Below are positions 14,537 through 29,649 of a stretch of DNA of 64,000 nucleotides, in pieces (position 1 is the first letter of the stretch; each line of letters begins with the position of its first letter). Source of the DNA: Peribacillus sp. ACCC06369. GTDB lineage: Bacteria > Bacillota > Bacilli > Bacillales > DSM-1321. The notes beneath the pieces are model-generated. The model was given only the letters and a program-made list of their open reading frames with translations, ran no database searches and was not told where the DNA came from. The position numbers and the translations under genes were made by a program. The stretch covers positions 1,426,001 through 1,490,000 of the forward strand of contig NZ_JAUCEN010000002.1 in assembly GCF_030348945.1 (NCBI RefSeq), written 5' to 3'.

Positions 14537-14557
14537 ATGAATTAAGTTGAACAGTGA

Positions 14558-14583
14558 CCTTTCCATCGAGGAAAGGTTTTTTG
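14558..14583 (+). terminator. Intrinsic terminator after ktrD
   Basis: Stem CCTTTCC/GGAAAGG with an ATCGA loop, followed by TTTTTTG. Confidence 0.88.
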
Positions 14584-14735
14584 TCTTGTTTGCAGGAATC
14601 ATGAATAAAATGTTGAAATTTACCTATGAGTGGGTTTTTACCATTGTTATATACAGTATATGATTAATTTGCCCCCTTGCTTGCTGGAATTCGATCGGAT
14701 GAAGTTTAAATCATTTTGGTAAGGAGGTGGAAGAT

Positions 14736-16070
14736 GTGATGAAATATATTGGAAGGATTATTGTCCCTGTCCTTTTTTTTATATTGATATTGCCCTATTT
14801 AGGATGGCTGGGTCATGAAGAACGGAGGTTTTCCGCCTTTGCAGCAATATATTTAATCACCATTTTATCCATAGCTTGGTGTTTGGGTGCTATCTATGAT
14901 AATAAACGGAAAACGATTGCTTTATTGCAAGATAGCGAAGGACGCTATCGCATTTTCTCCAAGTACTCTAAAGAATTGGTCAATAGCTTCAATGAGGTTA
15001 TTTTCCAAACGGATGATAAAGGAAAATGGTTGTATTTAAACCCAGCATGGAAATCGATGAGTGGTGCAACCGTGAATGAGTCTCTAGGGCTTCACTTTTC
15101 TAAATATATGGATAACACTTCTTATCAAGACGTATTAAGGGTCTTTGCGGAATCCTTTCATCGAGGAAATAAATATTTTCGTGCGGACATTAAACTAAAT
15201 GCGAAAAAAGGGACAAGTTGGGTTGAAGCATTCGTTAAACTAATTTACGATGATGCTGGGAAATTCATAGGGACGGCAGGCATTATTTCTGAAATTAATG
15301 AACGTAAACATGCGGAAGAGAAGCTCGTGAGCCTAAACGAACATTTGGCGATCACATCAAGCAAGTTATCAACGGCCGCCCAACTGGCGGCAGGGATTGC
15401 ACATGAGGTCAGGAATCCGATGACAGCTATAATGGGTTTTGTAAAATTGATTAAAGATGGCGGTGCCGATAAACAGGAATACTATGATATTATTTTTTCG
15501 GAAATAAATCGAATCGAGCAAGTCCTGAATGAACTCTTGCTGCTGTCGAAACCTGCCGAGGCGGTTTTTCTAGAGAAGGATTTAAAGGAAAGCTGCAATC
15601 ATGTCATAACCCTGTTGGAGACAAACGCCGTATTGAACAATATTCAAATTCATAAAAATTATGATACAGAACCCATTTTCATTTACTTTGATGAAAACCA
15701 AATCAAGCAAGTACTAATAAACATGATAAAAAATTCCATAGAATCGATGCCGGATGGCGGAAATATTTTTGTGAGCATATATGAAAAATATGGGGAAGTT
15801 TTTGTAAGCATTTTGGATGAAGGGGAAGGTATTCCGGAAAACTCCCTTCAAAAGGTGGGAGAACCATTTTTCACGACGAAATCATCAGGAACAGGATTGG
15901 GTCTTTCCGTTTGTTTTAAAATCATTGAAAAGCATGGAGGGAAAGTTTTTATCACAAGTGAACTAAAAAAAGGTACGAAAATCGTATGTGTATTTCCTAT
16001 AGTCCAACCAAAGGAACACAGGGGAAATGAAAATGTACAAGGACTAAAGCGACATGAAAAAAAGATTTAA
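14736..16070 (+). CDS. Membrane PAS sensor histidine kinase, sporulation kinase-like
   Basis: A kinase of about 444 residues. Two N-terminal hydrophobic helices (near 5-22 and 35-52) come first, then a PAS domain (about 85-190, with NEVIFQTDDKGKWLYLNPAW), a HisKA domain with AAGIAHEVRNPMTAIMGF (phospho-acceptor His), and an ATPase domain with N, G1 (DEGEGIPE) and G2 (GTGLGLSVCFKI) boxes. The HisKA segment resembles KinA-KinE, which feed phosphate to Spo0F. GTG 14736 lies eight bases after AGGAGG; ATG 14739 is equally possible. No response regulator is adjacent, as is usual for phosphorelay kinases. Confidence 0.88.
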   Translation: MMKYIGRIIVPVLFFILILPYLGWLGHEERRFSAFAAIYLITILSIAWCLGAIYDNKRKTIALLQDSEGRYRIFSKYSKELVNSFNEVIFQTDDKGKWLYLNPAWKSMSGATVNESLGLHFSKYMDNTSYQDVLRVFAESFHRGNKYFRADIKLNAKKGTSWVEAFVKLIYDDAGKFIGTAGIISEINERKHAEEKLVSLNEHLAITSSKLSTAAQLAAGIAHEVRNPMTAIMGFVKLIKDGGADKQEYYDIIFSEINRIEQVLNELLLLSKPAEAVFLEKDLKESCNHVITLLETNAVLNNIQIHKNYDTEPIFIYFDENQIKQVLINMIKNSIESMPDGGNIFVSIYEKYGEVFVSILDEGEGIPENSLQKVGEPFFTTKSSGTGLGLSVCFKIIEKHGGKVFITSELKKGTKIVCVFPIVQPKEHRGNENVQGLKRHEKKI

Positions 16071-16073
16071 TTA

Positions 16074-16103
16074 TTGAAAAAATCGGAAAATTGTGTATAT
16101 ACT
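16074..16103 (+). promoter_or_regulatory. Candidate sigma-A promoter of the acyl-CoA cluster
   Basis: TTGAAA (16074-16079), an 18-base spacer and TATACT (16098-16103). The palindromic operator lies about 17 bases downstream of the -10, where a repressor would block transcription. Confidence 0.6.
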
Positions 16104-16115
16104 GTAAAAGAAAGA

Positions 16116-16133
16116 ACATACTAACCGGTTAGT
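16116..16133 (+). promoter_or_regulatory. Probable TetR-family operator 1
   Basis: Contains the perfect 14-base palindrome ACTAACCGGTTAGT (16120-16133), preceded by ACAT. The same 18 bases, with one substitution, occur at 20442-20459 before the second half of the cluster. A TetR regulator is encoded between the two sites. The length and symmetry are typical of TetR operators. Confidence 0.75.
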
Positions 16134-16156
16134 CAGTTTAAAAGGAGGAATTCAAT

Positions 16157-17386
16157 TTGAACTTTGAACATACTCAAAAGGTGAAAAATTTGGAAAAGAA
16201 GTTAACGGAATTCATGGAAAAGTACGTATATCCAAATGAATCCGTATACCAAAAGCAGCTCGAAGCACAGAAGAGCCGCTGGAGTGAAATACCACCGATT
16301 TTAACTGAATTAACGGCAAAAGCAAAAGAAGAAGGATTATGGAATTTATTTTTACCTGATAGCGGTTATGGGGCGGGTTTAACAAATCTAGAATATGCAC
16401 CGCTTTGTGAAATCATGGGGAGGTCGATGATAGGACCTGAAATCTTCAACTGTAACGCACCGGACACGGGCAATATGGAAGTGTTGGTGAGATACGGTTC
16501 AGATGAACATAAAGAACGCTGGCTGAAACCGTTGCTTGCTGGGGAAATCCGCTCATGCTTCTCGATGACAGAACCGGAAGTGGCGTCTTCCGATGCGACC
16601 AATATCGAGTGCAGGATTGAAAAGGCAGGTAATGAGTATGTCATAAACGGCCGGAAATGGTGGTCGTCAGGAGCAGGCGATCCCCGATGCAAGATTGCCA
16701 TCGTTATGGGTAAGACAGATCCTGAAGCGTCCAAGCATGAACAACAGTCAATGATTCTTGTACCGCTGGATACACCGGGTGTGAAAATCGAGAGAATGCT
16801 CCCAGTGTTTGGTTATGATCATGCTCCGCATGGCCATGCCGAAATCAATTTTGAAAATGTGAGGGTTCCGGCATCGAATATACTATGGGGTGAAGGCAAA
16901 GGGTTTGCGATTGCCCAGGGAAGACTCGGACCTGGAAGGATACATCACTGCATGAGGCTTATCGGCGCTGCTGAAAGAGCACTTGAAGAATTATGTAAGC
17001 GTATTCAAAATCGTGTCGCTTTTGGTAAACCTTTGGCGAGACAAGGTGTGATCATGGAATGGGTGGCCGATTCACGGATTGAAATCGAACAAGCAAGACT
17101 TCTGACTTTAAAAGCTGCCTATATGATGGATACAGTCGGGAACAAGGAAGCCAAGGCGGAGATAGCCATGATAAAAGTAGTGGCACCAAATATGGCATTG
17201 AAAGTGCTGGACAGGGTCATTCAAGGATTTGGAGCTGCAGGTATTTCCGATGATTTCCCTTTTGCTGCACATTGGGCAAATGCACGGACGTTAAGGCTTG
17301 CTGATGGCCCGGATGAAGTGCACCGCTCACAAGTGGCTAAAATAGAACTTCGAAAATACCAACAAAAGCATGAGGTGAAAATATGA
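16157..17386 (+). CDS. ACAD10/ACAD11-like acyl-CoA dehydrogenase family protein
   Basis: A 409-residue flavoprotein of the acyl-CoA dehydrogenase superfamily. It carries the signatures of the ACAD10/11 branch: [10 protein letters not shown] (167-176), [13 protein letters not shown] (255-267) and LADGPDEVH (381-389), where ordinary members have a YEG-type catalytic Glu. In mammals this branch eliminates phosphate from 4-phosphorylated acyl-CoA after the linked kinase domain acts; in Pseudomonas the related LvaC acts in levulinate breakdown. Here the kinase is a separate gene at 22.6 kb. TTG 16157 follows AAAGGAGG by eight bases. The next gene overlaps by four bases. The branch is confident; the substrate is inferred. 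Confidence 0.9.
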
Positions 17387-18156
17387 AAGTTACCGACCTA
17401 TTCGATCTGACTGGAAAGACGGCGATCATTACCGGTGGAGGGAGAGGATTGGGAGAACAAATAGCTACCGGCTTTGCTGAAGCAGGGGCTAATGTCGTTC
17501 TTTGTTCAAGGAAGAAGGAAGCATGCGACGAAGTTGCTTCGCAAATCGAAAAGCTTGGGGTCAGGGCGCTTTCCTTCAAGTGCGATATCACCAATCCGTC
17601 GGATGTACAGGAAGTTGTTAACGAAACTTACCGGGAATTCGGTACGATAGACATTTTAGTAAACAACAGCGGGGCATCCTGGGGGGCTCCGGCCGTCGAC
17701 ATGCCCCTTGAAGCCTGGCAGAAGGTGATGAATGTCAATGTAACCGGAACCTTTATCATGAGCCAGACTGTAGGCAGGGTCATGATTGAGCAGGGACGGG
17801 GGAAAATCATAAACATCGCTTCCGTCGCCGGATTAGGAGGGACTGACCCGAGGGTGCTCGATACGGTCGGATATAATACGAGTAAAGGGGCGGTCATTAC
17901 TTTAACAAAGGATTTAGCCGTTAAGTGGGGTCAGCATAATATCAATGTTAATGCAATCGCACCAGGATTCTTTCCGACAAAAATGACGAAAGGGGTTCTC
18001 GAGCAAGGAAAGAGTCCTATCTTGGATTCCACTCCGCTAAGAAGGTTAGGGAGTGATGATGATTTAAAAGGGGCAGCGGTTTTCCTGGCATCAAAGGCAT
18101 CTGATTACGTGACTGGAAATATCTTGATTGTTGATGGGGGTTCACATGCAATGTAA
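17383..18156 (+). CDS. Short-chain dehydrogenase/reductase
   Basis: A 257-residue classical SDR. It has the TGGGRGLGE nucleotide motif (about 17-25), NNSGASWG, the catalytic Ser in [16 protein letters not shown] with catalytic Tyr and Lys, and APGFFPTKM. Its start overlaps the previous stop (ATGA), so it is translationally coupled to the ACAD11-like gene. It could interconvert keto and hydroxy acyl-CoA in this pathway, as LvaD-type reductases do for 4-keto acids; that role is inferred from the neighbours. Confidence 0.87.
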
Positions 18157-18190
18157 AGAAAAGTAAGTAAATATGGCTGGAGGGTATGTA

Positions 18191-19804
18191 ATGATGAAAG
18201 AAAAAAAATGGCTGTCCGTTTATCCCGATTCAATTTCAAAGGAAATAAAAGTTCCTGAGTTTCCGATGCAAAGAATCCTTCAAAATGCATGTCAGGCCTA
18301 TCCAAACAATACAGCTATTACTTTTTTTGGACGAAAGATATCTTATCAGGAACTTTTTCATGCATCGCAAGCCTTTGCTTCAGCCCTGCAAAAAAAAGGC
18401 GTCCAAAAAGGTGATCGTGTCGCCATCATGCTACCTAACTGTCCCCAATACGTCATTGCATACTATGGATCTTTGACGACAGGAGCAATTATCACCCAAA
18501 TCAATCCAATGCTGGTTGAAAGGGAGTTGCAGCATATCTTACAGGACTCCGGTGCCGAAACGATCGTGGTTTTGGATGGATTATATCCGAAAGTGAAAAG
18601 TGTCCAGCAGCATGCAAATGTGAAAAATATTATCGCCGTAAGCCTGCGGCCATCAGATGCAGATTTCCAGCCTGATGTTTCATTTGACCAATTCATGAAG
18701 TCAGGGGACGGAAAAATCAATCCAGTATCATTCGATCCGGAAAATGATATCGCCGTTCTTCAGTATACAGGAGGAACGACTGGCCGTTCAAAAGGAGCTA
18801 TGCTGACTCACAGAAATATTCTGGCTAACGTCGTTCAATCATATGAATTCTTCAAGCATGAATTAAAATTGGGAGCTGAAAGAACGTTGTCGGTCATCCC
18901 GCTTTTCCATGTTTTTGGAATGACGTCCGCAATGAACCTATCCGTTTATATTGCTGGTGACTCAATCATGCTGCCAAGGTTTGAGATAGAAGAAGTGCTT
19001 GAAACGATAAAGCGAGAACAGCCAACCACTTTTCCTGGTGTACCGACCATGTATGTAGCGTTGACGAATCATCCAAAGGCAGAAGAATATGGAATGGGAT
19101 CAATTCAGGTCTGTAACAGCGGAAGTGCACCGATGCCTGTGGAACTGCTACGTGAGTTTGAACGAAAATCAGGTGCGAAGATATTGGAAGGCTACGGTCT
19201 TACGGAAGCTTCGCCAACAACGCATTGTAACCCGGTATTTGCTGAAAGGAAGCCTGGGAGCGTCGGGATTGGTATCCCTTCGACTGAATATAAAGTGATG
19301 GACCTAGGGGACGGGACAAAAGAAGTGCCCACTGGCGAAATGGGGGAATTGGTCGTCAAAGGACCTCAAGTGATGAAAGGTTACTGGAATATGCCTGAGG
19401 AAACTGCGGTCACTCTTAGGGATGGTTGGCTTTATACGGGGGATATCGCCAAAGTTGATGAAGAAGGGTACCTCTATATTGTCGACAGGAAAAAAGATTT
19501 GATCATCGCAAGTGGGTTTAATATATATCCGCGTGATGTGGAGGAAGTTCTCTATGAACATCCTGCTGTCCAGGAAGCGGTTGTCGTCGGGGTTCCGGAT
19601 GCTTACCGAGGGGAGTCGGTTAAAGCGGTGCTTGTACTTAAAAATAATAAAAAGGCAAGTGAACGGGAAATCATTGATTACTGCCGTGCAAACCTATCGG
19701 CCTATAAAGTTCCGAATTTTGTTGAATTTCGTGAAGAGTTACCGAAAACAAATGTCGGAAAGATTTTAAGGCGAGCTTTAAGGGAAGAACTTTCCAGGAA
19801 ATAA
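18191..19804 (+). CDS. Long-chain-fatty-acid-CoA ligase family protein
   Basis: An acyl-CoA synthetase of about 537 residues in the AMP-forming ligase family. The phosphate loop YTGGTTGRSKGAM, the EGYGLTEASPTTH segment, the YTGDIAKVDEEGYLYIVDR hinge region and the C-terminal lysine region PKTNVGKILRR are intact. It should activate the incoming carboxylic acid to its CoA thioester and thereby start the pathway. ATG 18191 was chosen: GGAGGG lies seven bases before it, while the ATG at 18173 precedes that site. It is the third gene of the first transcription unit. Confidence 0.9.
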   Translation: MMKEKKWLSVYPDSISKEIKVPEFPMQRILQNACQAYPNNTAITFFGRKISYQELFHASQAFASALQKKGVQKGDRVAIMLPNCPQYVIAYYGSLTTGAIITQINPMLVERELQHILQDSGAETIVVLDGLYPKVKSVQQHANVKNIIAVSLRPSDADFQPDVSFDQFMKSGDGKINPVSFDPENDIAVLQYTGGTTGRSKGAMLTHRNILANVVQSYEFFKHELKLGAERTLSVIPLFHVFGMTSAMNLSVYIAGDSIMLPRFEIEEVLETIKREQPTTFPGVPTMYVALTNHPKAEEYGMGSIQVCNSGSAPMPVELLREFERKSGAKILEGYGLTEASPTTHCNPVFAERKPGSVGIGIPSTEYKVMDLGDGTKEVPTGEMGELVVKGPQVMKGYWNMPEETAVTLRDGWLYTGDIAKVDEEGYLYIVDRKKDLIIASGFNIYPRDVEEVLYEHPAVQEAVVVGVPDAYRGESVKAVLVLKNNKKASEREIIDYCRANLSAYKVPNFVEFREELPKTNVGKILRRALREELSRK

Positions 19805-19870
19805 GAAGGAAGTACGAAAGCGTATGATATCAATTCAGCTGAAATTTTAACAGATTGCGAGGATGCATAC

Positions 19871-20434
19871 ATGAAAGAAAAAATGACAGAACATAGCATA
19901 CGCTTATTTGAAAAGAAGGGCTTTAGTGAAACGTCGATTTCTGATATCGTCGAATCGGTCGGGGTGACGAAGGGAACGTTTTATTACTACTTTACGAGCA
20001 AAGAGCAGTTGCTTATGGATATTCATCTAGCATATATAGACGAGTTGCTTAGTGAGCAGGAAATAATCATTTTGGATCCTGGGAAAAGCTGTAAGGATAA
20101 GCTTTTCGATATGGTATATATGCTCTTAAAAAGCATCAAAACCAAAAAATCCAGCGCCACGGTCTTTTTCCGTGAAATGAAAAATCTAAGTGACGAAAAA
20201 CTTGCACAAGTCCTTCCTAAGAGGGATGATTTCCGTAATAAAATCGAGCAAGTGCTGATAGAAGGCATCGAGAGCGGAGAACTACGTTCCAATCTCGATG
20301 CATCCATCATCTCTTTTGCTATTTTGGGTGTGACCAATTGGAGCTATCATTGGTTTGACCCAGAAGGTGAAAAAAACGAACAGGAAGTGGCAGCCATTTT
20401 TATGGAGATGATTCTGCATGGAATTGAAGCGTGA
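19871..20434 (+). CDS. TetR/AcrR family transcriptional regulator
   Basis: A 187-residue repressor-type protein. The N-terminal helix-turn-helix is clear: FEKKGFSETSISDIVESVGV then TKGTFYYYFTSKEQLL. The C-terminal two thirds is the ligand and dimer domain, ending WFDPEGEKNEQEVAAIFMEM. It lies between the two halves of the acyl-CoA cluster and 12 bases before the second operator. Its probable sites are the palindromes at 16120 and 20446, so it would control both halves, likely relieved by an acyl-CoA as for FadR-type TetR proteins. Its own gene would be in the first regulated unit, giving autoregulation. Confidence 0.9.
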   Translation: MKEKMTEHSIRLFEKKGFSETSISDIVESVGVTKGTFYYYFTSKEQLLMDIHLAYIDELLSEQEIIILDPGKSCKDKLFDMVYMLLKSIKTKKSSATVFFREMKNLSDEKLAQVLPKRDDFRNKIEQVLIEGIESGELRSNLDASIISFAILGVTNWSYHWFDPEGEKNEQEVAAIFMEMILHGIEA

Positions 20435-20441
20435 CTAGGTT

Positions 20442-20459
20442 ACATACTAACCAGTTAGT
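20442..20459 (+). promoter_or_regulatory. Probable TetR-family operator 2
   Basis: ACATACTAACCAGTTAGT matches operator 1 in 17 of 18 bases. The core ACTAACC/AGTTAGT (20446-20459) is an imperfect 14-base palindrome. It sits between the tetR stop and the hydroxyacyl-CoA dehydrogenase start, suggesting a second regulated promoter there. Confidence 0.75.
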
Positions 20460-20477
20460 AGAGGGGAGATGGATGGC

Positions 20478-21365
20478 ATGACCGACAAGCAAATTCAATC
20501 AATAACCGTAATCGGGGCTGGGCAGATGGGGCATCAAATTGCGATGCTTGCTGCACTTGGAGGTTACGAAACGATTCTTCAGGATGTTCAGGAAAAAGCG
20601 TTGAATGCAGCCAAAGAAAAATTGGACGTCATTTTGACTAAATGGGTCCAAAAAGGAAAATTGTCTGAAGATCGAAAATTGGCGGCATTTAGCCGTCTTC
20701 AATATACTACCGATTTGGAGAAAGCGGCCAGTGGAGCTGATTTGATCATTGAAGCGGTTGTTGAAAAACTTGATGTGAAGCAGGAAGTTTTCGCTAAACT
20801 GGAGCAATTGGCACCAACAGAAACCATTTTTGCAACGAATAGTTCAACGATTGTCAATAGCCTGCTGTCAGGTGTGACGAATCGTCCGGATAAGTTCATT
20901 AATATGCATTTCTTCTTCCCGCCTCTAATAATGGATTGTGTTGAAATTGTAATGAGTGATCAAACTTCTGAAGAAACCGCTAAGCTTGCGATGGAAGTCA
21001 CAGAGAAAATGAATAGGACAGGAGTTTTGTTGAGGAAAGAAATATCGGGATTTGTAGCCAATCGAATTTTGGGAGCGTTACAGCGTGAGGCCCTATATTT
21101 GTATGAAGAAGGAATTGTGGATTATAAGGATATCGATTTAATTTGCAGGAAAGCGTTAGGCCATCCCGTCGGTCCATTTGAACTGATGGATTTATCAGGT
21201 ATTGATGTAGGATATTTTGTCATGCAGCAACGATACAATGAAACTGGAAATCCAGAAGACAAGCCAAATGCTTGTATAGAAGAAAAGGTTAACAAAGGAC
21301 ATTTAGGAAGGAAAACAGGAAAAGGTTGGTATGATTATCCAAATCAAGGAGTGAAGAATCGATGA
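20478..21365 (+). CDS. 3-hydroxyacyl-CoA (3-hydroxybutyryl-CoA) dehydrogenase
   Basis: A 295-residue NAD-dependent dehydrogenase. It has the Rossmann motif VIGAGQMGHQIAM near the N terminus, the catalytic-type FINMHFFFPP with its His, ATNSSTI, and the C-terminal helical domain with ISGFVANRILGAL and GPFELMDLSGID. It oxidises 3-hydroxyacyl-CoA to 3-ketoacyl-CoA. ATG 20478 was chosen because GAGGGGAG lies ten bases upstream and abuts the other ATG at 20469. It overlaps the following crotonase by four bases. Confidence 0.92.
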   Translation: MTDKQIQSITVIGAGQMGHQIAMLAALGGYETILQDVQEKALNAAKEKLDVILTKWVQKGKLSEDRKLAAFSRLQYTTDLEKAASGADLIIEAVVEKLDVKQEVFAKLEQLAPTETIFATNSSTIVNSLLSGVTNRPDKFINMHFFFPPLIMDCVEIVMSDQTSEETAKLAMEVTEKMNRTGVLLRKEISGFVANRILGALQREALYLYEEGIVDYKDIDLICRKALGHPVGPFELMDLSGIDVGYFVMQQRYNETGNPEDKPNACIEEKVNKGHLGRKTGKGWYDYPNQGVKNR

Positions 21366-22141
21366 CACAGTTAATTAGAGTGGAAAAAGAAAATAAGCTT
21401 GCGATCATAACCATTGATAATCCTCCATTAAACGTAATCAGCAAACAGGTATTCAAAGAATTGGGAGAAATATTCACTGAACTTTCAAAGAATTCTGAAA
21501 CTGTAGCAGTACTCTTAACGGGTGCAGGCAATATCGCATTTGCGGCTGGTGCTGATATAAAAGAATTCCCTAACATGATGGGAAACCCGAATATGAAAGA
21601 ATTGGTAAGGGAAAGTCATGCCGTCTTAACCAAAATAGACATGTTCCCTAAACCTACGATAGCTGTATTAAATGGCCTGACTTTAGGCGGCGGATGCGAA
21701 TTGGCTCTGTCCTGTGATATGCGTGTCGCTGAAACACAGGTGCAAATTGGGCTGCCGGAAGTGAAATTAGGCTTATTTCCTGGTGCTGGCGGTACACAGC
21801 GTTTGTCCAGACTTGTAGGGAACGCAAAAGCAAAGGAGATTATATTCACCGGTGATCCGCTTGATGCCAAAGAAGCGGAAAAGATCGGGCTTGTCAATAA
21901 AGTCGTCGAGCAAGGCTGCGGTTTATCGGAAGCGAAAATCTTGGCTTCAAGAATGACGAGGCACTCTTTACAAGCACTTTCAAGAATCAAGAAGGCGATT
22001 AATGAAGGAAGTGAGGCAACGCTTGAACAAGGACTAGAGCTAGAAACGAATCTTTTTGAAGAAATCTTCCAAACTGAAGATGTTAAAGAAGGGGTTTCCG
22101 CTTTTCTGGATAAGCGTAAACCTGCTTTTGTACATCGTTAA
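21362..22141 (+). CDS. Enoyl-CoA hydratase (crotonase family)
   Basis: A 259-residue crotonase. It has the oxyanion-hole segment AAGADIKEF and both hydratase glutamates, in GGGCELALSCD and LPEVKLGLFPGAGGTQRL. It should hydrate 2-enoyl-CoA to 3-hydroxyacyl-CoA, the substrate of the dehydrogenase immediately upstream. The ATGA overlap with that gene indicates coupling. Confidence 0.92.
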   Translation: MTQLIRVEKENKLAIITIDNPPLNVISKQVFKELGEIFTELSKNSETVAVLLTGAGNIAFAAGADIKEFPNMMGNPNMKELVRESHAVLTKIDMFPKPTIAVLNGLTLGGGCELALSCDMRVAETQVQIGLPEVKLGLFPGAGGTQRLSRLVGNAKAKEIIFTGDPLDAKEAEKIGLVNKVVEQGCGLSEAKILASRMTRHSLQALSRIKKAINEGSEATLEQGLELETNLFEEIFQTEDVKEGVSAFLDKRKPAFVHR

Positions 22142-22156
22142 ACAAGGAGGGGTAAT

Positions 22157-22558
22157 ATGCATGAATTTGAAGTCAACGTCCGTTTTTCAGAAACGGATGC
22201 TTTGGGCCACATCAATAACACAAGCTATTTCATTTACCTCGAAGAAGCCCGCATGAAATTTTTTGAAGCCTTGGGGCTAGCGACGAAAGTCGAATCGTGG
22301 AATTTTTTGTTAGCCTCCACAAAATGCGACTTTATTGCTCAGGGATATTTCAATCAACTCTTGACCATTCGTTCATCTTTGACGAAGGTGGGGACGAAAA
22401 GCTGTGAAATGGTCCATGATATTCTCTGTTCACAAACTGGTGAAGTAATTGCCAAGGGGAGTGCAGTTTTAGTCTGTTTCAATTTTTTGAATCAAAATAG
22501 TGAACCTATTCCTGAAAAGATTAAAGAAAAGCTCATCTCACATCTTGTTCATAATTAG
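22157..22558 (+). CDS. Hotdog-fold acyl-CoA thioesterase
   Basis: A 133-residue protein of the 4-hydroxybenzoyl-CoA thioesterase/YbgC type. The signature VRFSETDALGHINNTSYFIY near the N terminus contains the catalytic-type Asp followed by GHINN. It would hydrolyse an acyl-CoA, perhaps relieving CoA sequestration when the pathway stalls. It begins 15 bases after the hydratase with an AAGGAGG site. Confidence 0.88.
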   Translation: MHEFEVNVRFSETDALGHINNTSYFIYLEEARMKFFEALGLATKVESWNFLLASTKCDFIAQGYFNQLLTIRSSLTKVGTKSCEMVHDILCSQTGEVIAKGSAVLVCFNFLNQNSEPIPEKIKEKLISHLVHN

Positions 22559-22588
22559 AATGATAAAAGTCTAAAGGAGTGGAGGAAC

Positions 22589-23650
22589 ATGGTTGACGAT
22601 ACGATTCCTGTTCGGCCTGGAGAGGAACTGAATGTTCATTCATTAGAAGGCTTCCTAAGAAAAAATGTTTTGGACCTTCCAAATGAACCGTTAGAATTGC
22701 AACAATTTTCCACAGGTTATTCAAATTTGACCTATCAGCTGAAAATGGGGGAGTGGGAGGCAGTCCTCAGAAGGCCGCCGCTTGGTCCTGTCGCTCCAAA
22801 GGCACATGATATGAAGCGTGAACATCATATTCTGGCCTCAATCAACCCATATTTTCAAGCCGCTCCCGAGCCAATTCTATTCTCGGATGATGAGTCTATT
22901 GCTGGGGCCCCTTTTTTCCTAATGGAAAGGAAACATGGAATTGTAATAGACAATGAGTTTCCCAAAGGAATCGAGCCTACTCCTGAAAGGTGCCGACAGC
23001 TTTCTTATGTCATGGTCGATCGGCTTGCTGACCTACACTCGATCCCACATGAGAAAACGGGTTTAGTGGAAATCTCCAAACCGGAGGGATTCATTGAAAG
23101 ACAAGTAAACGGTTGGATTTCCCGTTATGAGAGAGCAAAGACAGATGAAATAGAAGAAGTGCGGCCGCTTATCGAATATTTGCAACAGAATATCCCGAAA
23201 CATAGCCAGACTTCAATTATCCATTATGACTATAAGATCAATAATGCCATGTTTAACCATGACCTTACAGAGATGGTAGGTTTATTTGATTGGGAAATGT
23301 CCACCGTTGGTGATCCGTTAGCCGATCTAGGAGTTGCTTTAAGCTACTGGACGGAAAGCGGTGACCCGGAACCTATCAAAATCGGTGTGGGTCAAGCGTC
23401 CGTCACGACTTTAACTGGTTTCCTGACAAGAAGGGAATTTATCGAGACGTATGCAGCAAGAAGCGGCAGGGATGTTTCCAACGTCGATTTTTATTTAACC
23501 TTTGGTTACTTTAAGTTAGCTGTCATCCTTCAGCAAATCTATTACCGATATAAAAAAGGCCAGACTAATGACCCCCGTTTTTCCAATCTCGGAAAAACGG
23601 TTAAAAGCTTAATCAGCCATGCAGCAAATGTAGCTGCGAAGGAAGTTTAA
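22589..23650 (+). CDS. ACAD10/ACAD11-type acyl-CoA kinase (APH phosphotransferase family)
   Basis: A 353-residue protein with the aminoglycoside-phosphotransferase kinase fold. The nucleotide-lobe segment VLRRPPLGPVAPKAHDMKRE (59-78) is characteristic of the ACAD10/11 N-terminal domain. The catalytic loop IIHYDYKINNAMF has the expected His212, Asp214 and Asn219, and the metal motif is FDWEMSTVGDPLADLG with Asp234. In mammals and in the Pseudomonas lva operon such kinases phosphorylate the 4-hydroxyl of 4-hydroxyacyl-CoA. An antibiotic kinase role is unlikely in this operon. ATG 22589 follows GGAGTGGAGG. Confidence 0.88.
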   Translation: MVDDTIPVRPGEELNVHSLEGFLRKNVLDLPNEPLELQQFSTGYSNLTYQLKMGEWEAVLRRPPLGPVAPKAHDMKREHHILASINPYFQAAPEPILFSDDESIAGAPFFLMERKHGIVIDNEFPKGIEPTPERCRQLSYVMVDRLADLHSIPHEKTGLVEISKPEGFIERQVNGWISRYERAKTDEIEEVRPLIEYLQQNIPKHSQTSIIHYDYKINNAMFNHDLTEMVGLFDWEMSTVGDPLADLGVALSYWTESGDPEPIKIGVGQASVTTLTGFLTRREFIETYAARSGRDVSNVDFYLTFGYFKLAVILQQIYYRYKKGQTNDPRFSNLGKTVKSLISHAANVAAKEV

Positions 23651-23654
23651 TAAT

Positions 23655-24413
23655 ATGGAGTATGTACAAAACATTCATTTGTTATTAAAAAAAGAAGAGA
23701 TAGATGGGGAAAAGCTTCAAGAAGGGGAAAAAGTTGCAGTCGTCCTGGATGTGTTATTAGCGACCACAACGATTATTTCAGCACTTCATGATGGAGCACG
23801 CCAGGTGATTCCTGTCATGGATCCAATTGATGCCTTAGTGAAAAGCCAGGAATTGGGCCATGGAGATACTCTAGTGGCAGGTGAACTTAAAGCAAAGCCG
23901 GTTGAAGATTTGATGTACCCAAGTCCGACGCTATTGAGTAAGTTGGTACACGGCAAAACACTAATACTGTCTACGACTAACGGAACGGTAGCGTTGAGAA
24001 ATTCTGCCGCTGCCAAAAAGGTTTACATCGCTTCTTTGCTGAATAATCCGTCTGTTGCGGAAAAAATAAAAAAACATCATAAAACAGAAACGATCGTCAT
24101 CGTTTGTTCGGGAAACTCAGGTGAATTCAGTCTGGAAGACTTTTATGGTGCAGGCCATTTGATAGATTGCCTGATTGCTGGATCACAAGATCCATTCATG
24201 CTCAACGATGCAGCAAAGGCTGCAATTGCGCTTTATCGCACGAATAGCGAAAATGCCCTTGATATCTTGCAATCATCATATGTCGGACAGCTGTTTGACA
24301 AACACAGCTTGATCGCCGATTTGGAATTGGCGGCCCAAAAAGGTTCGATAGATCTTGTTCCGGAGTTGGTGGATGGAAGAATCGAGGCGGAATTGAAAAG
24401 GCAGGAAACGTAG
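23655..24413 (+). CDS. 2-phosphosulfolactate phosphatase (ComB) family protein
   Basis: A 252-residue protein of the ComB family, Mg2+-dependent acid phosphatases known from coenzyme M and sulfolactate synthesis. Family-like stretches are AVVLDVLLATTTIISALHDG (29-48), LVAGELKAKPVED, STTNGTVAL, VCSGNSGEFSLEDFYGAGHL and a conserved acidic centre. It starts four bases after the kinase stop, in the middle of an acyl-CoA operon with no other sulfolactate gene, so its substrate is probably not phosphosulfolactate. A phosphorylated pathway intermediate is an attractive but untested alternative. Confidence 0.82.
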   Translation: MEYVQNIHLLLKKEEIDGEKLQEGEKVAVVLDVLLATTTIISALHDGARQVIPVMDPIDALVKSQELGHGDTLVAGELKAKPVEDLMYPSPTLLSKLVHGKTLILSTTNGTVALRNSAAAKKVYIASLLNNPSVAEKIKKHHKTETIVIVCSGNSGEFSLEDFYGAGHLIDCLIAGSQDPFMLNDAAKAAIALYRTNSENALDILQSSYVGQLFDKHSLIADLELAAQKGSIDLVPELVDGRIEAELKRQET

Positions 24414-24442
24414 TAACAAAATCCAGATATGAGGTGAAGGGA

Positions 24443-25222
24443 ATGAGGTTTTCACAGTCAATAGCGGTGGTGACAGGTGCAGGTTCTGGTATTGGGAAAG
24501 CTACAGCGATGCGCTTATCGGACGAAGGGGCAAAAGTGTTGTTGGTAGGGCGGACGAAAGGAAAGCTGGAGGAAGCGGCAGCTGAAATCAATGCCAGGCA
24601 CACGATTCCCATGGCCGATATTTTCCCTGCGGATGTAACCGTCGAGGAAGATGTAAAAGAGCTGTCCATGTATGTGAAGGAACAATATCGTGACCTTCAC
24701 ATCCTAATCAATAACGCAGGTGGATCAAAGTCCTCGAAGCTTTTGGATACATCTGCAGCTGATTGGGATATGATTCAACATGTCAATTTGAAAAGTGTCT
24801 ATTTAGTTTCCAAATACTTAGGGAAAGTGATGGAAGAAGGAGCGAACAGTGGAAATGAAGGTTCTATCAACAGGGCAATCGTGAATGTGGCTTCACTGTC
24901 AGGACATCAGGCAGGGGCCTTCATCCCGCATTACAGCTCTGCTAAGGCAGGGGTCATCAGTTTAACGAAATCATTGGCACTAGAACTCGCTGCAGTCGGC
25001 ATTCGGGTCAATTCCGTATCTCCGGGGTTTATTGAAACGCCATTAACGGAGGATGGATTGCAGAATGAAAAATTCGTAAAGTCCATTCAGAGGAACACGG
25101 CACTGGAAAGAGTGGGGAAAGCGGAGGAAATCAGTAATGTCATTACCTTTGCTGCTTCTCCGGAGGCTTCCTATATGACTGGGACAGATATATTGGTGGA
25201 TGGCGGCTGGTTGATCAAATAG
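24443..25222 (+). CDS. Short-chain dehydrogenase/reductase
   Basis: A 259-residue classical SDR. Motifs are VVTGAGSGIGKATA, LINNAGGSKSSK, NVASLSGHQAG with catalytic Ser, HYSSAKAGVISLTKS with Tyr and Lys, and VSPGFIETPLTEDG. It is the second SDR of the cluster and may act on a different oxidation state or chain position. ATG 24443 follows GAGGTGAAGGG; the GTG at 24434 overlaps that site. It lies 29 bases downstream of the ComB-like gene. Confidence 0.88.
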   Translation: MRFSQSIAVVTGAGSGIGKATAMRLSDEGAKVLLVGRTKGKLEEAAAEINARHTIPMADIFPADVTVEEDVKELSMYVKEQYRDLHILINNAGGSKSSKLLDTSAADWDMIQHVNLKSVYLVSKYLGKVMEEGANSGNEGSINRAIVNVASLSGHQAGAFIPHYSSAKAGVISLTKSLALELAAVGIRVNSVSPGFIETPLTEDGLQNEKFVKSIQRNTALERVGKAEEISNVITFAASPEASYMTGTDILVDGGWLIK

Positions 25223-25239
25223 AAAAAGGGGATGGGTAA

Positions 25240-26019
25240 ATGTTAAAAGAACACTTGTTGACAGAAGTTATCGATAATGTATTGATCCTGACGTTGAATC
25301 GTCCTGAAAGCCTGAATGCATTTAGTCCTGATATGATTGCAAATTTAACGAGAACGATTAAGGATGTTAAACAAACGCCACATATAAGGGCTGTCATCAT
25401 CAAAGGGGCGGGTCGGTCATTCACTGCAGGAGGAGACGTTAAGTCGATGGGGAAGGCATCTGCAGGTCAATTGTATGATCATGTTGGCAGAATGAACGAA
25501 TGCATTTTGGCTCTCGATGCATCTGAGGTTCCCGTTATCGCTGCCGTCCATGGATTTGCGGCAGGGGCCGGTTTCAATTTGGCACTCGCTTGTGATTTGA
25601 TAGTGGCTTCCGATGATAGTCAATTTGCCATGAGTTTTTCACAGGTAGGCCTGATTTCAGATGGAGGGGGTTCGTATTTTTTACCAAAGTTAGTAGGCCC
25701 CCACCTTGCAAAGCAGCTCTTCTTTTCAGCAGAGCCGATTTCTGCGGAACGCTTATACCAGTTAGGTGTAATTAATTATTTATATCCACTCAATCAACTT
25801 GAAGAAGAAACATTGAAACTAGCGGAAAAGCTTTCAAATGGTCCAACAAAAGCATATGGAATGATGAAAAAACTCGTTAGCCATTCATTTACGGCTACAT
25901 TGGATGAAATACTCGAACAGGAGCGAATCACGCAAACCTTGATGGCTTCCACAGAAGATCATCTAGAGGGGGTGGCAGCATTCAAAGAGAAAAGAAAACC
26001 GGGATTTACGGGGAATTAA
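25240..26019 (+). CDS. Crotonase family protein, PaaG-like (enoyl-CoA isomerase/hydratase)
   Basis: A 259-residue crotonase. It has FTAGGDVKSMG for the oxyanion hole, but both hydratase glutamates are absent: the first region reads AAGAGFNLALACD and the second SFSQVGLISDGGGS. This pattern, with Asp in the second region, resembles PaaG-type delta-isomerases rather than hydratases. It may shift a double bond so that the other crotonase in the operon can hydrate it. It follows the SDR by 17 bases with an AAAAGGGGATGGG site. Confidence 0.85.
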   Translation: MLKEHLLTEVIDNVLILTLNRPESLNAFSPDMIANLTRTIKDVKQTPHIRAVIIKGAGRSFTAGGDVKSMGKASAGQLYDHVGRMNECILALDASEVPVIAAVHGFAAGAGFNLALACDLIVASDDSQFAMSFSQVGLISDGGGSYFLPKLVGPHLAKQLFFSAEPISAERLYQLGVINYLYPLNQLEEETLKLAEKLSNGPTKAYGMMKKLVSHSFTATLDEILEQERITQTLMASTEDHLEGVAAFKEKRKPGFTGN

Positions 26020-26035
26020 TAAGGGGGGAACAATG

Positions 26036-27013
26036 ATGAGAGCTATTCAATTTGAAGAATACGGCGGACCGGAAGTACTGAAAATGACTGAAATGGAAAG
26101 GCCCGTGCCAACTGGGCATGAAGTTCTGATTGAAATCGATTGTGTCGGCGTCAATTATGCGGATACAGCCAGGAGGGAAGGACAATATGTAGTACCTACG
26201 CCGCTTCCGTTCATTCCAGGTGCGGAAGTGGCGGGCGTAGTGGTGGAAGTTGGTGGAAAGGTGACTAAAATCAAACCTGGCACAAGGGTCGTGAGTTTAA
26301 TTGAATCGGGTGGGTATTCAGAATATGCCCTATCTGATGAATTCTCTGCCATTCCGCTTCCTGATGCCATTAAGTTCCATGAAGCTGTTGCCTTACCCCT
26401 TCAAGGCCTGAGCGCCTATCATATTCTAAAGACAATGGGGCGCATGCAACAGGGGGATACGGTATTGGTCCATGCTGCAGCAGGGGGAGTGGGAACGATT
26501 GCAGTCCAGCTGGCCAAAATCTTCGGGGCTGGAAAAGTGATTGCAACTGCCAGCACAATGGAAAAGTTGGAGCTAGCTAAAGAGATGGGGGCAGATGAAC
26601 TTATCGATTATACCAAAGAAGGATGGGAACTGAAAGTCCGTGAAGCCACGGGAGGAAAGGGAGTCGACGTGGCGCTGGAAATGGCTGGAGGGGATATTTT
26701 CAAGAAAACATTGAAATGTTTGGCACCATTTGGCCGTCTTGTCGTTTTTGGTAATGCCAGCCGAGAGCCTTATACGATGAACCCACAGCAATTAATGAAG
26801 CGCAATCAATCCGTCGTAGGTTTTTTCCTGCCACAGATCATGAAACACCCAGATTTGCTGTTGCCTAGCATTGAAGACCTTTTTTCTTACGTGGCGTCAG
26901 GGGAGCTTAAGCTAACTATCGGCGGCATATATCCGATTGAAAAGGCCGCGGATGTCCATGAAGAAATGAACGCCCGTCAAACGAAAGGCAAGTTGATTTT
27001 GCAGGTTAAATGA
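26036..27013 (+). CDS. Quinone oxidoreductase-like zinc-independent MDR protein
   Basis: A 326-residue medium-chain dehydrogenase/reductase of the NADPH:quinone oxidoreductase type. It shows FEEYGGPEVLKM, GVNYADTARREG, the NADPH motif HAAAGGVGTIAVQLAK and GGKGVDVALEMAGG, and lacks the zinc-binding cysteines of alcohol dehydrogenases. It is the last gene of the cluster and could reduce an enone or enoyl thioester. ATG 26036 fits the GGGGGG ribosome site better than the adjacent ATG 26033. Confidence 0.88.
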   Translation: MRAIQFEEYGGPEVLKMTEMERPVPTGHEVLIEIDCVGVNYADTARREGQYVVPTPLPFIPGAEVAGVVVEVGGKVTKIKPGTRVVSLIESGGYSEYALSDEFSAIPLPDAIKFHEAVALPLQGLSAYHILKTMGRMQQGDTVLVHAAAGGVGTIAVQLAKIFGAGKVIATASTMEKLELAKEMGADELIDYTKEGWELKVREATGGKGVDVALEMAGGDIFKKTLKCLAPFGRLVVFGNASREPYTMNPQQLMKRNQSVVGFFLPQIMKHPDLLLPSIEDLFSYVASGELKLTIGGIYPIEKAADVHEEMNARQTKGKLILQVK

Positions 27014-27017
27014 TAGT

Positions 27018-27049
27018 AAGGGGTGTATACCTAAGCGATACACCCCTTG
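27018..27049. terminator. Stem-loop at the end of the acyl-CoA cluster
   Basis: Eleven-base-pair stem AAGGGGTGTAT/ATACACCCCTT between convergent genes. Neither strand has a U-run after it, so it may act as a weak terminator or 3'-end stabiliser. Confidence 0.5.
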
Positions 27050-27083
27050 GCTAATAAGTGGATTTCACTTCCTTAAGAACCAC

Positions 27084-27419
27084 TCAATCCGTTTCAACGC
27101 TAACATCTTTATCAGGATGCATAAAGAGAGGTTGCGGCGCTCTTTTAGCCTCTAACAGTTCACGGTTTTCGGTTGAATTCCAGCCTATATCATTGGTGGG
27201 GTGTATCCATTCGTCTCCAGCCATGATTTCCGGGTCGGTATCTTCGCTCCAATTTTCGAGTGGTGAGTTTTCAGATGCATATTTACTGTCTCCAATGACG
27301 ACTCCGTAATCATTGACGAATGGAGCTTGTGGTTTTATGCCGGTTCCTTTAAAGCTTGGCGCGTTAATTTGGTGGGGTTGTGTATCGTCGACAATTGGTG
27401 AATCCAATTTCTTCTTCAT
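27084..27419 (-). CDS. DUF3905-like hypothetical protein
   Basis: An 111-residue acidic soluble protein without signal or membrane segment. The core HQINAPSFKGTGIKPQAPFV, YGVVIGDSKYASENSPLE and AGDEWIHPTNDIGWN is what I recall of the Bacillus DUF3905 family, whose function is unknown. The minus-strand ATG has a GGGAGAT ribosome site. It faces the acyl-CoA cluster and is not part of it. Two small genes diverge from it upstream. Confidence 0.75.
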   Translation of the reverse strand: MKKKLDSPIVDDTQPHQINAPSFKGTGIKPQAPFVNDYGVVIGDSKYASENSPLENWSEDTDPEIMAGDEWIHPTNDIGWNSTENRELLEAKRAPQPLFMHPDKDVSVETD

Positions 27420-27542
27420 ATAGTATCTCCCTTTCCGTTTTACGGTTATTTTTCTCGTCTGTCCCTATATTATCCCTGAATAATTTTCGACTGTTTTACC
27501 CCATTCTAAAAATGTAAACTATATTAAAAGGGGTGGATGAAA

Positions 27543-27701
27543 ATGAAACGGAAAGCCAATGTTGATGGTGCTGTCAAAGCAAGCAAAACGCCAAAAAGGA
27601 ACCAAGCTGAAAATGAGTTTTCCAATGAGTTCGCATTAGGGGAAAACGCAATGAAAGGTGCTAACCGCAATTCGAAGCAAGGCAGAAAAGGAAGAAGTTA
27701 A
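27543..27701 (+). CDS. Small basic hypothetical protein (52 aa)
   Basis: A 52-codon gene beginning MKRKANVDGAVKAS and ending NSKQGRKGRS, rich in Lys, Asn, Arg and Ala, with a short acidic-aromatic centre (ENEFSNEFALGEN). AGGGGTGG lies seven bases upstream of ATG 27543. Composition resembles minor small acid-soluble spore proteins, but I do not recognise a named family. Its TAA shares a base with the ATG of the next gene. Confidence 0.65.
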   Translation: MKRKANVDGAVKASKTPKRNQAENEFSNEFALGENAMKGANRNSKQGRKGRS

Positions 27702-27844
27702 TGGATAAAGAAAAACGGAACTCACAGGAAAATATAGGGGAACATGTACGGACTGAATTTGGAATCGAATTCAGTGGCGATATGAACGCGACCAAAATTT
27801 ATGAAATATTGGCAAAAGAAAATAAAAAACGTGATAATAAATAA
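27701..27844 (+). CDS. Small hypothetical protein (47 aa), coupled to the previous gene
   Basis: A 47-codon gene starting MDKEKRNSQENIGEHV and containing EFGIEFSGDMNATKIYEI. It is charged and soluble, with a predicted C-terminal helix. The start overlaps the upstream stop (TAATG), and GGAAGAAG before it provides a ribosome site. No family was recognised. Translation coupling argues that both small genes are real. Confidence 0.65.
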   Translation: MDKEKRNSQENIGEHVRTEFGIEFSGDMNATKIYEILAKENKKRDNK

Positions 27845-27884
27845 AAAAGTAAAAAGGACGGGCCCATTACTGGGGTCCGTCCTT
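27844..27884 (-). terminator. Terminator between convergent genes
   Basis: Stem AAGGACGG/CCGTCCTT with further GGCCC/GGGGT pairing. On the minus strand it is followed by TTTTTACTTTTTT, so it mainly serves the radical SAM gene; it may act on both strands. Confidence 0.8.
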
Positions 27885-27888
27885 ATCT

Positions 27889-29649
27889 TTAAAAAATGAT
27901 GCTTCCGGATTTTGAGAGTGGGAAGACGGTTGAGCCCTTACCACTCGGATCAAAATAGGCAAGCATGATCGATGGTTTCTCGACGATTGTCCCCTCCGTT
28001 AAATACGTTTCCAGATCAAAGGGAAGTGCCTCGAGCAATGTGTGTTTGTGTATTTCTTTTTCATTAAGTGCCAAAGCGGTGAAAGAGGATCCAAGCTGAT
28101 CAGGCTTATTCAGGATATCTTCATAAATCTCTTTCCGGCCATGTTTATCAAGTGAAGCTTCCCACCAAGGTTTACGTGGTTTGTATTTTTGATTCAAGAA
28201 ATAATCCAATTTCATGAGTCCGATTATGTTTTTCAGTTCAACAGATTCGCGGGAAGCCAAAAACTGCTGTAAACGTCTAAATAAGTCTTCAAGCTGATGT
28301 CCGATTCGTGACCAGCCCTGTTGATCCCAATAGGTACCGAAATCTTGAAAGAAGTCGAATGGTGATTGAAATACCGTTTTGATTAGATATTCCGTGGTAT
28401 GATCCATTCTATGATCGTTCCAGTATTTTTCAAGGACATCTTCAACTTGTTTAATGCGGACAATATCATCGAAGGATAATACATTATTTCCTAGGATTTC
28501 GTAGGGAGCATGATCACTATATATATATTGGTGTTCATCGGCACGTATCCTTAAGCCTGTACCACGGAGCATCTTTAAGAAGCCAAGCTGCATCTCTTCG
28601 GGTCTGAGCTCGAAGACATCATTGAAGGTCTTTCTAAAGGAATGGTAATCTTCTTCAGGCAAACCGGCAATCAGGTCTAAATGCTGATCAATTTTTTGCC
28701 CTTCTTTAACCATTGTGACTGTCCGGGTCAGTTTTTCGAAATTTTGCCTTCTCATAACCAGATCATTCGTATGGTCATTCGTTGATTGTACCCCGATTTC
28801 AAAGCGGAACAATCCTGCAGGGGCATTATCGTTCAAGAACTGGATAACTTCCGGACGCATGATGTCCGCAGTGATTTCAAACTGGAATACCACACCGGGC
28901 AGATGTTCATCAATTAGGAATTGAAACATTTCCATGGCATAGCTTCGGCTAATATTGAAGGTTCGGTCAACGAACTTAATGGTCTTTGCACCATTAGCCA
29001 TAAGGTATCTGATATCTTCTTTAATCTTTTCACGATCAAAATACCTGACACCCACTTCAATCGATGAGAGACAAAATTGGCAGCTGAATGGGCACCCTCG
29101 GCTAGTTTCGATATAGGTGACACGTTTAGATAGATCACTACGATCTTCTTCCAAACGGTATGGTGTAGGCAGCGATTTCAAATCAACCTTGCCGTTCTGA
29201 GGCTGGATGATTTTTTTTCCGTTCTGTCGATACGCAATGCCGCCGACCTTTTTATAGTCGTTCGCACCTTCAATTTCAGATAATAGAGCCTTGAAGGTGA
29301 CTTCACCTTCTCCAATTACGATAAAATCAGCCCCGGGAATCTTATCTAGCCATTCACCAACATCATATGTGACTTCAGGTCCGCCGAGAATGATAACCAA
29401 TTCTGGATTGATCTTCTTCAGCATGGCTACAACTTTCATTGTTTCCTCGATGTTCCAAATATAACAGCTGAATCCTATAACATCAGGTTTTTTGGAATAA
29501 AGGTCACCAACGATGTTCATGATTGGATCTTTGATCGTATATTCTGCCAGCTGTACATCATAATCTGGCTGGGCATAAGCCTTTAAATAGCGAATGGATA
29601 GCGATGTATGGATATATTTTGCATTAAGAGTACTGATAATAATATTCAT
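27889..29649 (-). CDS. B12-binding domain-containing radical SAM protein
   Basis: A protein of 586 residues. The N terminus (to about 130) is a cobalamin-binding-type Rossmann domain with SLSIRYLKAY and IILGGPEVTYD. The radical SAM core follows with ETSRGCPFSCQFCLSS, the three cysteines that bind the 4Fe-4S cluster. A DUF4080-like C-terminal domain completes it. Members methylate or rearrange unactivated carbons; no substrate can be named. ATG 29649 matches the family start (MNIIISTLNAKYIH). An AAAGGAG lies 26 bases upstream, separated by a small GGCG/CGCC hairpin that could bring it closer; the frame is open further upstream. Confidence 0.85.
   Translation of the reverse strand: MNIIISTLNAKYIHTSLSIRYLKAYAQPDYDVQLAEYTIKDPIMNIVGDLYSKKPDVIGFSCYIWNIEETMKVVAMLKKINPELVIILGGPEVTYDVGEWLDKIPGADFIVIGEGEVTFKALLSEIEGANDYKKVGGIAYRQNGKKIIQPQNGKVDLKSLPTPYRLEEDRSDLSKRVTYIETSRGCPFSCQFCLSSIEVGVRYFDREKIKEDIRYLMANGAKTIKFVDRTFNISRSYAMEMFQFLIDEHLPGVVFQFEITADIMRPEVIQFLNDNAPAGLFRFEIGVQSTNDHTNDLVMRRQNFEKLTRTVTMVKEGQKIDQHLDLIAGLPEEDYHSFRKTFNDVFELRPEEMQLGFLKMLRGTGLRIRADEHQYIYSDHAPYEILGNNVLSFDDIVRIKQVEDVLEKYWNDHRMDHTTEYLIKTVFQSPFDFFQDFGTYWDQQGWSRIGHQLEDLFRRLQQFLASRESVELKNIIGLMKLDYFLNQKYKPRKPWWEASLDKHGRKEIYEDILNKPDQLGSSFTALALNEKEIHKHTLLEALPFDLETYLTEGTIVEKPSIMLAYFDPSGKGSTVFPLSKSGSIIF

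Follow-up and report, generated by a model that had tools for sequence, protein, structure and literature searches.

The window analysed here is a 64 kb stretch of DNA, bases 1426001-1490000 of contig 2 in the 5.6 Mb genome of Peribacillus sp. ACCC06369, and its positions 16157-27013 hold 12 genes that open reading frame (ORF) inspection found to be all intact and all on the plus strand. An earlier note on this DNA had proposed that a kinase and an acyl-CoA dehydrogenase (ACAD), the two activities fused in mammalian ACAD10 and ACAD11, lie here as separate genes in a hydroxy-acid cluster. Every gene that it named proved to be an open frame where it had been placed, by ORF inspection and family models. 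Its gene list lacked the TetR regulator, the ComB-like phosphatase and the zinc-type quinone oxidoreductase. The pathway reading gained support; the ComB-like gene, the most informative one in the cluster, had been overlooked. The features are as follows.

16120..16133, no strand: perfect palindrome ACTAACCGGTTAGT, probable operator 5' of the first operon (palindrome scan of the window)
16157..17386, plus strand: acyl-CoA dehydrogenase of the ACAD10/11-LvaC type (phosphate-eliminating type); 55.6% identity to the ACAD domain of mouse ACAD11, with matched site residues
17383..18156, plus strand: SDR1, a short-chain dehydrogenase (SDR) and possible 4-oxo/4-hydroxyacyl reductase; NCBIfam NF006070 at 405.7 bits (cut-off 279)
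18173..19804, plus strand: AMP-forming acyl-CoA ligase; AMP-binding domain, NF004837 at 494 bits (cut-off 476), long-chain type
19871..20434, plus strand: TetR-family regulator, distant relative of FadR; TetR_N and TetR_C_24, FadR model below its cut-off
20446..20459, no strand: second palindrome ACTAACCAGTTAGT, one change from ACTAACCGGTTAGT, before the second operon (palindrome scan of the window)
20469..21365, plus strand: 3-hydroxyacyl-CoA dehydrogenase (family-model match)
21362..22141, plus strand: enoyl-CoA hydratase ECH1 (family-model match)
22157..22558, plus strand: 4HBT-type acyl-CoA thioesterase; PF13279 at 75 bits (cut-off 25.5)
22589..23650, plus strand: APH-fold kinase, proposed 4-hydroxyacyl-CoA kinase; catalytic residues matched to mouse ACAD11, tree grouping at 0.978
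23655..24413, plus strand: ComB-like phosphatase of a kinase-linked subfamily, with Leu35; PF04029, linkage, alignment and predicted fold
24434..25222, plus strand: SDR2, a short-chain dehydrogenase (family-model match)
25240..26019, plus strand: enoyl-CoA hydratase/isomerase ECH2 (family-model match)
26033..27013, plus strand: zinc-type quinone/enoyl reductase-like oxidoreductase, PIG3-like (family-model match)

The ComB-like gene is the only PF04029 gene of the genome and starts four bases past the stop codon of the kinase. Its product matches PF04029 at 205 bits (cut-off 26.4), has the ComB structure 1vr0 as its nearest solved relative (E 1.9e-35), and is predicted to fold with confidence (mean predicted local distance difference test score, pLDDT, of 91.1 from a ten-sequence alignment). 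The substrates of the ComB family are phospho-hydroxy acids. Among 120 genomes of the order, with the kinase called at E up to 1e-60, the kinase occurred in 60 (69 genes) and PF04029 likewise in 60 (72 genes); both were present in 55 genomes, the kinase alone in five and PF04029 alone in five. Fifty of the 72 PF04029 genes lay within 10 kb of a kinase, all of them on the same strand and 46 with a gap of at most 262 bases. We also fetched 67 related loci, 52 of which carry a kinase at least 54% identical to that of the window. ComB was present in 42 of these 52 orthologous loci and was the next gene downstream of the kinase in 39. The ACAD and SDR1 were found in 50 each, the quinone-oxidoreductase-like gene in 39, the ligase in 37 and the thioesterase in 35; the identity cut-off differs by gene and some loci stop at contig ends, so that this ranking is rough.

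The kinase-linked copies also differ in sequence from canonical ComB, represented by seven proteins from the order together with 1vr0 and 2yyv; three of the seven were checked for a ComA gene and all three had one. All nine canonical copies have Arg in the DxxRA motif. At the same position, the 50 kinase-locus copies of the order (window included) have Leu in 45 cases, Phe in four and Met in one. When nine more copies from named genomes were added, none of the 58 kinase-locus copies outside the window had Arg at position 35 (Leu 51, Phe 5, Ile 1, Met 1). The rest of the inspected core was retained: all 58 copies have D32, G76, E77, T108, N109, G110 and N130, and 57 have D162, the remaining row showing a gap there. 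D222 and C226 of canonical ComB are mostly changed as well.

Such a sequence split mostly accounts for the PF04029 genes distant from a kinase. Twenty of these 22 genes were examined, of which five are of the kinase-linked type, eight carry the canonical Arg and seven have Ser at that position. Each genome with one of the five has a kinase elsewhere; two of the five adjoin an ECH2 homologue, one lies near a cluster-type ACAD, SDR1 and thioesterase, and two stand apart. The neighbours of four of the eight canonical-Arg genes were scanned, and three adjoin ComA. The fourth sits between CbiQ transporter and nucleoside phosphorylase genes, with no ComA on either side. The third PF04029 type combines Ser at the Arg position with Arg replacing the core Glu77; a scan of the surroundings at two of its loci showed GH18 or amidohydrolase genes nearby. 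In the five genomes where no kinase was matched, every PF04029 gene is of the canonical-Arg or Ser type. Within the sampled genomes, both the linkage and the residue changes are solid.

The window protein thus shares PF04029 and most of the invariant core residues with canonical ComB (2-phosphosulfolactate phosphatase; 1vr0, 2yyv), and differs from it by Leu in place of Arg35 and by its linkage to a kinase and an ACAD. Pfam scans detected no ComA among the 12 cluster proteins. Together with the distinct sequence type, this makes it unlikely that the gene is a leftover of sulfolactate synthesis. We infer from the kept residues that the core still works or binds a ligand, and that the substrate has changed.

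The dehydrogenase, encoded by the first gene of the cluster, is strongly supported as being of the ACAD10/11 type by its solved relatives, its phosphate site and its catalytic Asp. Its closest solved relatives are 4hr3 (488.6 bits), human ACAD11 (477.5) and mouse ACAD11 (467.7), the next ACAD scoring 151, and the 55.6% identity to the mouse ACAD11 domain extends over 387 aligned residues. The signatures KWWSSGAG and LADGPDEVH, cited earlier for this assignment, are both present, at residues 167 and 381. In mouse ACAD11, R626, H634 and R637 hold the phosphate and D753 is the catalytic base, as described in a section of PMC12440821. The alignment places R256, R261, H264, R267 and D383 of the window protein on R626, R631, H634, R637 and D753, after a shift for the numbering of the PDB chain, which is one lower than that of the paper; R261, R631 in the mouse, is the general ACAD arginine. 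An ACAD above 150 bits was found in 125 of 163 kinase loci (window included), and every one of these has the phosphate site, as RRHCMRD in 116, with Ala for Cys in seven and Ser for Cys in two. The site occurred in 4 of 61 other ACADs within kinase loci, one further ACAD being cut off there, and was absent from all 16 frames taken from the genome's 12 other ACAD loci, one frame having part of it. We propose that the dehydrogenase would turn a 4-phosphoacyl-CoA into a 2-enoyl-CoA without an outside electron acceptor.

The kinase aligns with mouse ACAD11 at 30.9% identity over 330 residues, with D214, N219 and R171 on D220, N225 and R176. ACAD11 R86 of the paper could not be placed in the alignment, as that number falls on Phe in the PDB chain. 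Of 8000 candidates scored in a search, 7760 matched the kinase at E 1e-20 or better; the best match has 94% identity, and the nearest named ones are Peribacillus proteins at 92% or below. The names shown were mainly phosphotransferase or aminoglycoside phosphotransferase. We placed the kinase in a FastTree tree of 140 tips, with LvaA, LvaC and ACAD10 outside the sampled set. The outgroup was formed by further APH matches of the genome, seven out of nine, the two weak ones being left out; it is not a panel of proven resistance kinases. The window kinase and PDB 9o56 belong to a 114-member clade that spans many phyla; its sister clade has 11 members, mouse ACAD11 and 3dxp plus nine from the class of a Pseudomonas genome. 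Local supports are 0.956 and 0.989 for the two sister clades and 0.978 for their union, which stands apart from the seven APH kinases of the genome and from eight DUF6285-linked kinases. The proposed ACAD10/11 type of the kinase therefore holds for the catalytic residues and the grouping, whereas actual membership does not, since the kinase falls in the sister clade and not inside the ACAD10/11 clade; judged by this tree, it is a relative of the ACAD10/11 kinases without being one itself. Likewise, the motif VLRRPPLGPVAPKAH, named earlier as a branch signature, is present at residue 59, but marks the clade sister to that of ACAD11, mouse ACAD11 reading VLRKKPPGSLLPKAH there. The expectation that the kinase would not cluster with other APH-type kinases was borne out for the seven from its own genome, and the tree position makes an antibiotic or sugar kinase unlikely.

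In other phyla, a different protein occupies the same place beside the kinase. From a scan of named genomes we took the best 80 of 569 kinase loci, 78 of which were analysed. A relative of the histidine phosphatases was found in 30 of the 78, within 800 bases of the kinase frame in 27 cases, one of which is an over-long frame overlapping the kinase; PF00300 was detected in all four of the 30 that were scanned. ComB was present in nine loci, seven from Bacillota and two from Rubrobacter-type genomes. The two kinds of partner never occurred together in the 154 loci of all three locus sets, and 39 of the 78 loci have neither; therefore, such partners are not universal. Among nine loci of the ACAD10/11 type, a histidine phosphatase occurs in one, 8 bases from the kinase. 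In all 32 histidine-phosphatase relatives, the first of the two catalytic His residues and the two inspected Arg positions are retained, and Ser stands at the position that aligns with the second catalytic His in solved chains of phosphoserine phosphatase 1, CobC and the phosphoglycerate mutase type. These proteins are unrelated to ComB, yet take the same place beside the kinase.

DUF6285, the family to which we take LvaB to belong, marks a further set of loci. It was found in 2 places among ten genomes and in 7 among 59 Pseudomonas genomes, and eight loci resulted. Their kinases are about 22-26% identical to that of the window; six of the eight loci have an ACAD about 32-34% identical to ours with the full RRHCMRD site, and two have no ACAD above 150 bits. 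Judged by these sequences, the loci with DUF6285, kinase and ACAD may be another arrangement of the same chemistry. Pfam scans of the 12 cluster proteins gave no DUF6285, and a DUF6285-locus profile found no match in 14001-29000 among frames of at least 80 residues. In 57 of the 59 Pseudomonas genomes there is also an ACAD at least 65% identical to that of the window, and in two genomes there is one at 52% identity for which no kinase was found. No kinase was found beside the former in any of 15 Pseudomonas loci from 14 genomes, ten of which span only 4.2 kb; kinase and ACAD may thus lie at distant sites there.

The chemistry itself is known. Mammalian ACAD10 and ACAD11 phosphorylate 4-hydroxyacyl-CoA and then eliminate the phosphate (sections of PMC11342911 and PMC12440821). 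According to passages of PMC11342911, the mammalian pathway handles 4-hydroxy acids, including products of oxidised lipids, the free phospho-acid 4-P-OH-C6 was measured in mammalian cells, and a Burkholderia kinase and ACAD can substitute for the ACAD10 domains in vitro. The same source describes the HAD domain of ACAD10 as having lost one Asp of its DxD motif, with negligible phosphatase activity, and as restraining the kinase. Pseudomonas uses the pathway for levulinate, and LvaB of P. putida binds LvaA and is essential (PMC6692424, citing Rand 2017). The place of lvaB beside the lvaA homologue is taken in P. citronellolis by a gene of the histidine phosphatase family, and the authors of that study suggested that its product may strip phosphate from 4-phosphovaleryl-CoA (PMC6692424).

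Against this background, the Peribacillus cluster resembles mammalian ACAD10/11 in the identical phosphate-site and catalytic residues of the ACAD and in the catalytic Asp and Asn of the kinase, as well as in having a phosphatase-fold protein at the kinase, as ACAD10 does with its HAD domain. It differs in having separate genes, a sister-clade kinase and a ComB-like instead of a HAD partner, set amid a ligase, SDRs, hydratases, a thioesterase and a TetR regulator. The separation into two genes is real but less remarkable than had been claimed, because the lva operon and the Burkholderia pair, the latter in a passage of PMC11342911, are bacterial split versions already in print. Like the lva operon of P. 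putida (lvaABCDE; described in part of PMC6692424), the cluster groups ligase, SDR, kinase and LvaC-type ACAD; unlike it, the 12 proteins include no DUF6285 protein, LvaR-type regulator or symporter, and beta-oxidation genes, a thioesterase and the ComB-like gene are added. With the levulinate cluster of P. citronellolis, as outlined in PMC6692424, it shares a phosphatase-family gene adjoining the kinase in the place of lvaB; there the gene is a histidine phosphatase in one strain, and here it is ComB-like in a pattern counted over many genomes. We found no report of ComB beside such kinases in open-licence papers at the level of titles and listings, and the portions consulted of that literature on such kinases contained no count of phosphatase partners and no mention of the lost residues. 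The cluster is a new case of a known pathway, and the novelty is the linked, altered phosphatase.

We consider it most probable, at about 0.62, that this is a TetR-controlled catabolic cluster which takes 4-hydroxy and 4-keto fatty acids into beta-oxidation, with the ComB-like protein belonging to the pathway and disposing of its phospho-intermediate. We infer the reactions and the 4-position from the genes and residues described above. The ligase would form the CoA ester of a 4-keto or 4-hydroxy acid, and an SDR would set the 4-hydroxyl by reduction of the 4-keto form. The kinase would phosphorylate the 4-hydroxyl of the acyl-CoA, and the dehydrogenase would eliminate the phosphate, using its FAD transiently, to give the 2-enoyl-CoA. 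The hydratases and the 3-hydroxyacyl-CoA dehydrogenase would carry on to the 3-ketoacyl-CoA. As the earlier note had stated, there is no thiolase among the 12 cluster proteins in Pfam scans; thiolases could be supplied from elsewhere in the genome, where Thiolase_N has 11 matches, nine of them strong. If the kinase outpaced the ACAD, CoA would be tied up as 4-phosphoacyl-CoA, and action of the thioesterase on this ester would yield a dead-end phospho-acid. The ComB-like protein could dephosphorylate whatever 4-phospho CoA ester the ACAD leaves unconsumed, or else the free phospho-acid, and thereby keep CoA from being trapped; an alternative remedy would be a partner that slows the kinase. Of the two, disposal is the most likely role, and we give it a slight lead over regulation on account of the retained core of ComB.

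Several observations weigh against this proposal. Since the ACAD is expected to release the phosphate on its own, it is not evident why a phosphatase would be required. The lost His of the histidine-phosphatase relatives and the HAD domain of ACAD10 argue for regulation, and the kept ComB core is defined by sequence conservation. ComB is not indispensable, because a copy within 10 kb is missing for 19 of the 69 kinase genes, and 38 of the 163 kinase loci lack an ACAD above 150 bits in the DNA examined. The Fisher value for the co-occurrence of kinase and ComB, 6e-22, ignores shared descent; the ComB-bearing loci of the tree are all confined to a single clan, in which 18 of the 54 tips lack both partners, and the pairing may accordingly have arisen once. 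The ligase appears to be of the long-chain type, as had been remarked before and as its NF004837 score bears out, which bears on the chain length of the substrate.

The best surviving competitor, possible though doubtful, is that the ComB-like protein is a regulatory or structural subunit of the kinase, inhibiting or activating it in the manner of LvaB on LvaA or of the ACAD10 HAD domain. The loss of the canonical Arg in all 58 kinase-locus copies, the Ser for the second catalytic His in all 32 kinase-linked histidine-phosphatase relatives and the placing of ComB as the gene immediately downstream of the kinase gene in 39 of 52 orthologous loci fit such a subunit, as do the published restraint of the kinase by a HAD domain with one Asp of DxD (in part of PMC11342911) and the essential binding of LvaB to LvaA (in part of PMC6692424). 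A pure regulator, however, need not keep its core, and here the remaining inspected core is invariant in 58 of 58 copies and the fold is predicted with confidence; furthermore, the parallel between ComB and the histidine phosphatases could be a coincidence.

Taken with the published HAD domain of ACAD10 and LvaB of Pseudomonas, the recurrence of such partners by the kinase suggests that they dispose of the phospho-intermediate or sense it. Tentatively, and short of an even chance, we extend this to a broader picture in which 4-hydroxyacyl-CoA kinases have repeatedly recruited unrelated phosphatase-fold partners, namely a fused HAD domain in ACAD10, histidine phosphatases in many phyla and ComB in Bacilli and Rubrobacteria, each having lost one canonical residue from the active site or a motif of its fold. 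The partner would act as a general brake or proofreader of the phospho-intermediate, as the overlooked third part of a three-part system. This would bear on how cells prevent build-up of the phospho-intermediate, as the incomplete HAD domain of ACAD10 has so far been given no explanation beyond restraint of the kinase. With a partner encoded separately in bacteria, this control could be tested in vitro, and, if the picture is true, many loosely named kinase relatives (phosphotransferase, aminoglycoside phosphotransferase) would gain a checkable role.

It is also conceivable, though unlikely, that kinase, ACAD and ComB-like protein perform the same chemistry on another hydroxylated acyl-CoA, branched, terpenoid or other. 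The sister-clade position of the kinase at 31% identity to ACAD11, the long-chain type of the ligase and the frequent quinone-oxidoreductase-like gene and SDR1 (39 and 50 of 52 orthologous loci) would suit such a substrate, but the phosphate site of the ACAD, which in mouse ACAD11 is placed for a 4-phosphate, is fully kept. Finally, an ordinary APH resistance or sugar kinase that happens to lie by a beta-oxidation cluster of the usual kind, ComB being a sulfolactate enzyme, is suggested by the automatic names of the relatives (aminoglycoside phosphotransferase) and by the ComB family name, but is rendered very improbable by the kinase tree, the ACAD phosphate site, the lack of ComA among the 12 proteins, the difference in sequence type from ComA-adjacent ComB copies and the linkage of kinase and ComB across the order.

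The palindromes suggest how the cluster may be controlled. The first lies 5' of the first gene, and the second follows the TetR gene, ahead of the gene for the 3-hydroxyacyl-CoA dehydrogenase. These are the only two sites in the 64 kb with at most two mismatches, against 0.11 expected, and two or more sites appeared in 1 of 100 shuffles. Similar palindromes, again with at most two mismatches, occur somewhere in 44 of 67 related loci, a count made without a shuffle control. With copies 5' of the first gene and after the TetR gene, we read the cluster as probably two operons under one TetR regulator that would act through these putative operators.

Directly 3' of the last gene, at 27013-27045, is a GC-rich hairpin which by eye resembles a terminator. 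PAS-histidine kinases flank the cluster at 14727-16070 and 31139-33316, with sporulation-kinase models among their below-cut-off matches. A B12-binding radical SAM protein is encoded on the minus strand at 27889-29745, where several models matched below their cut-offs.

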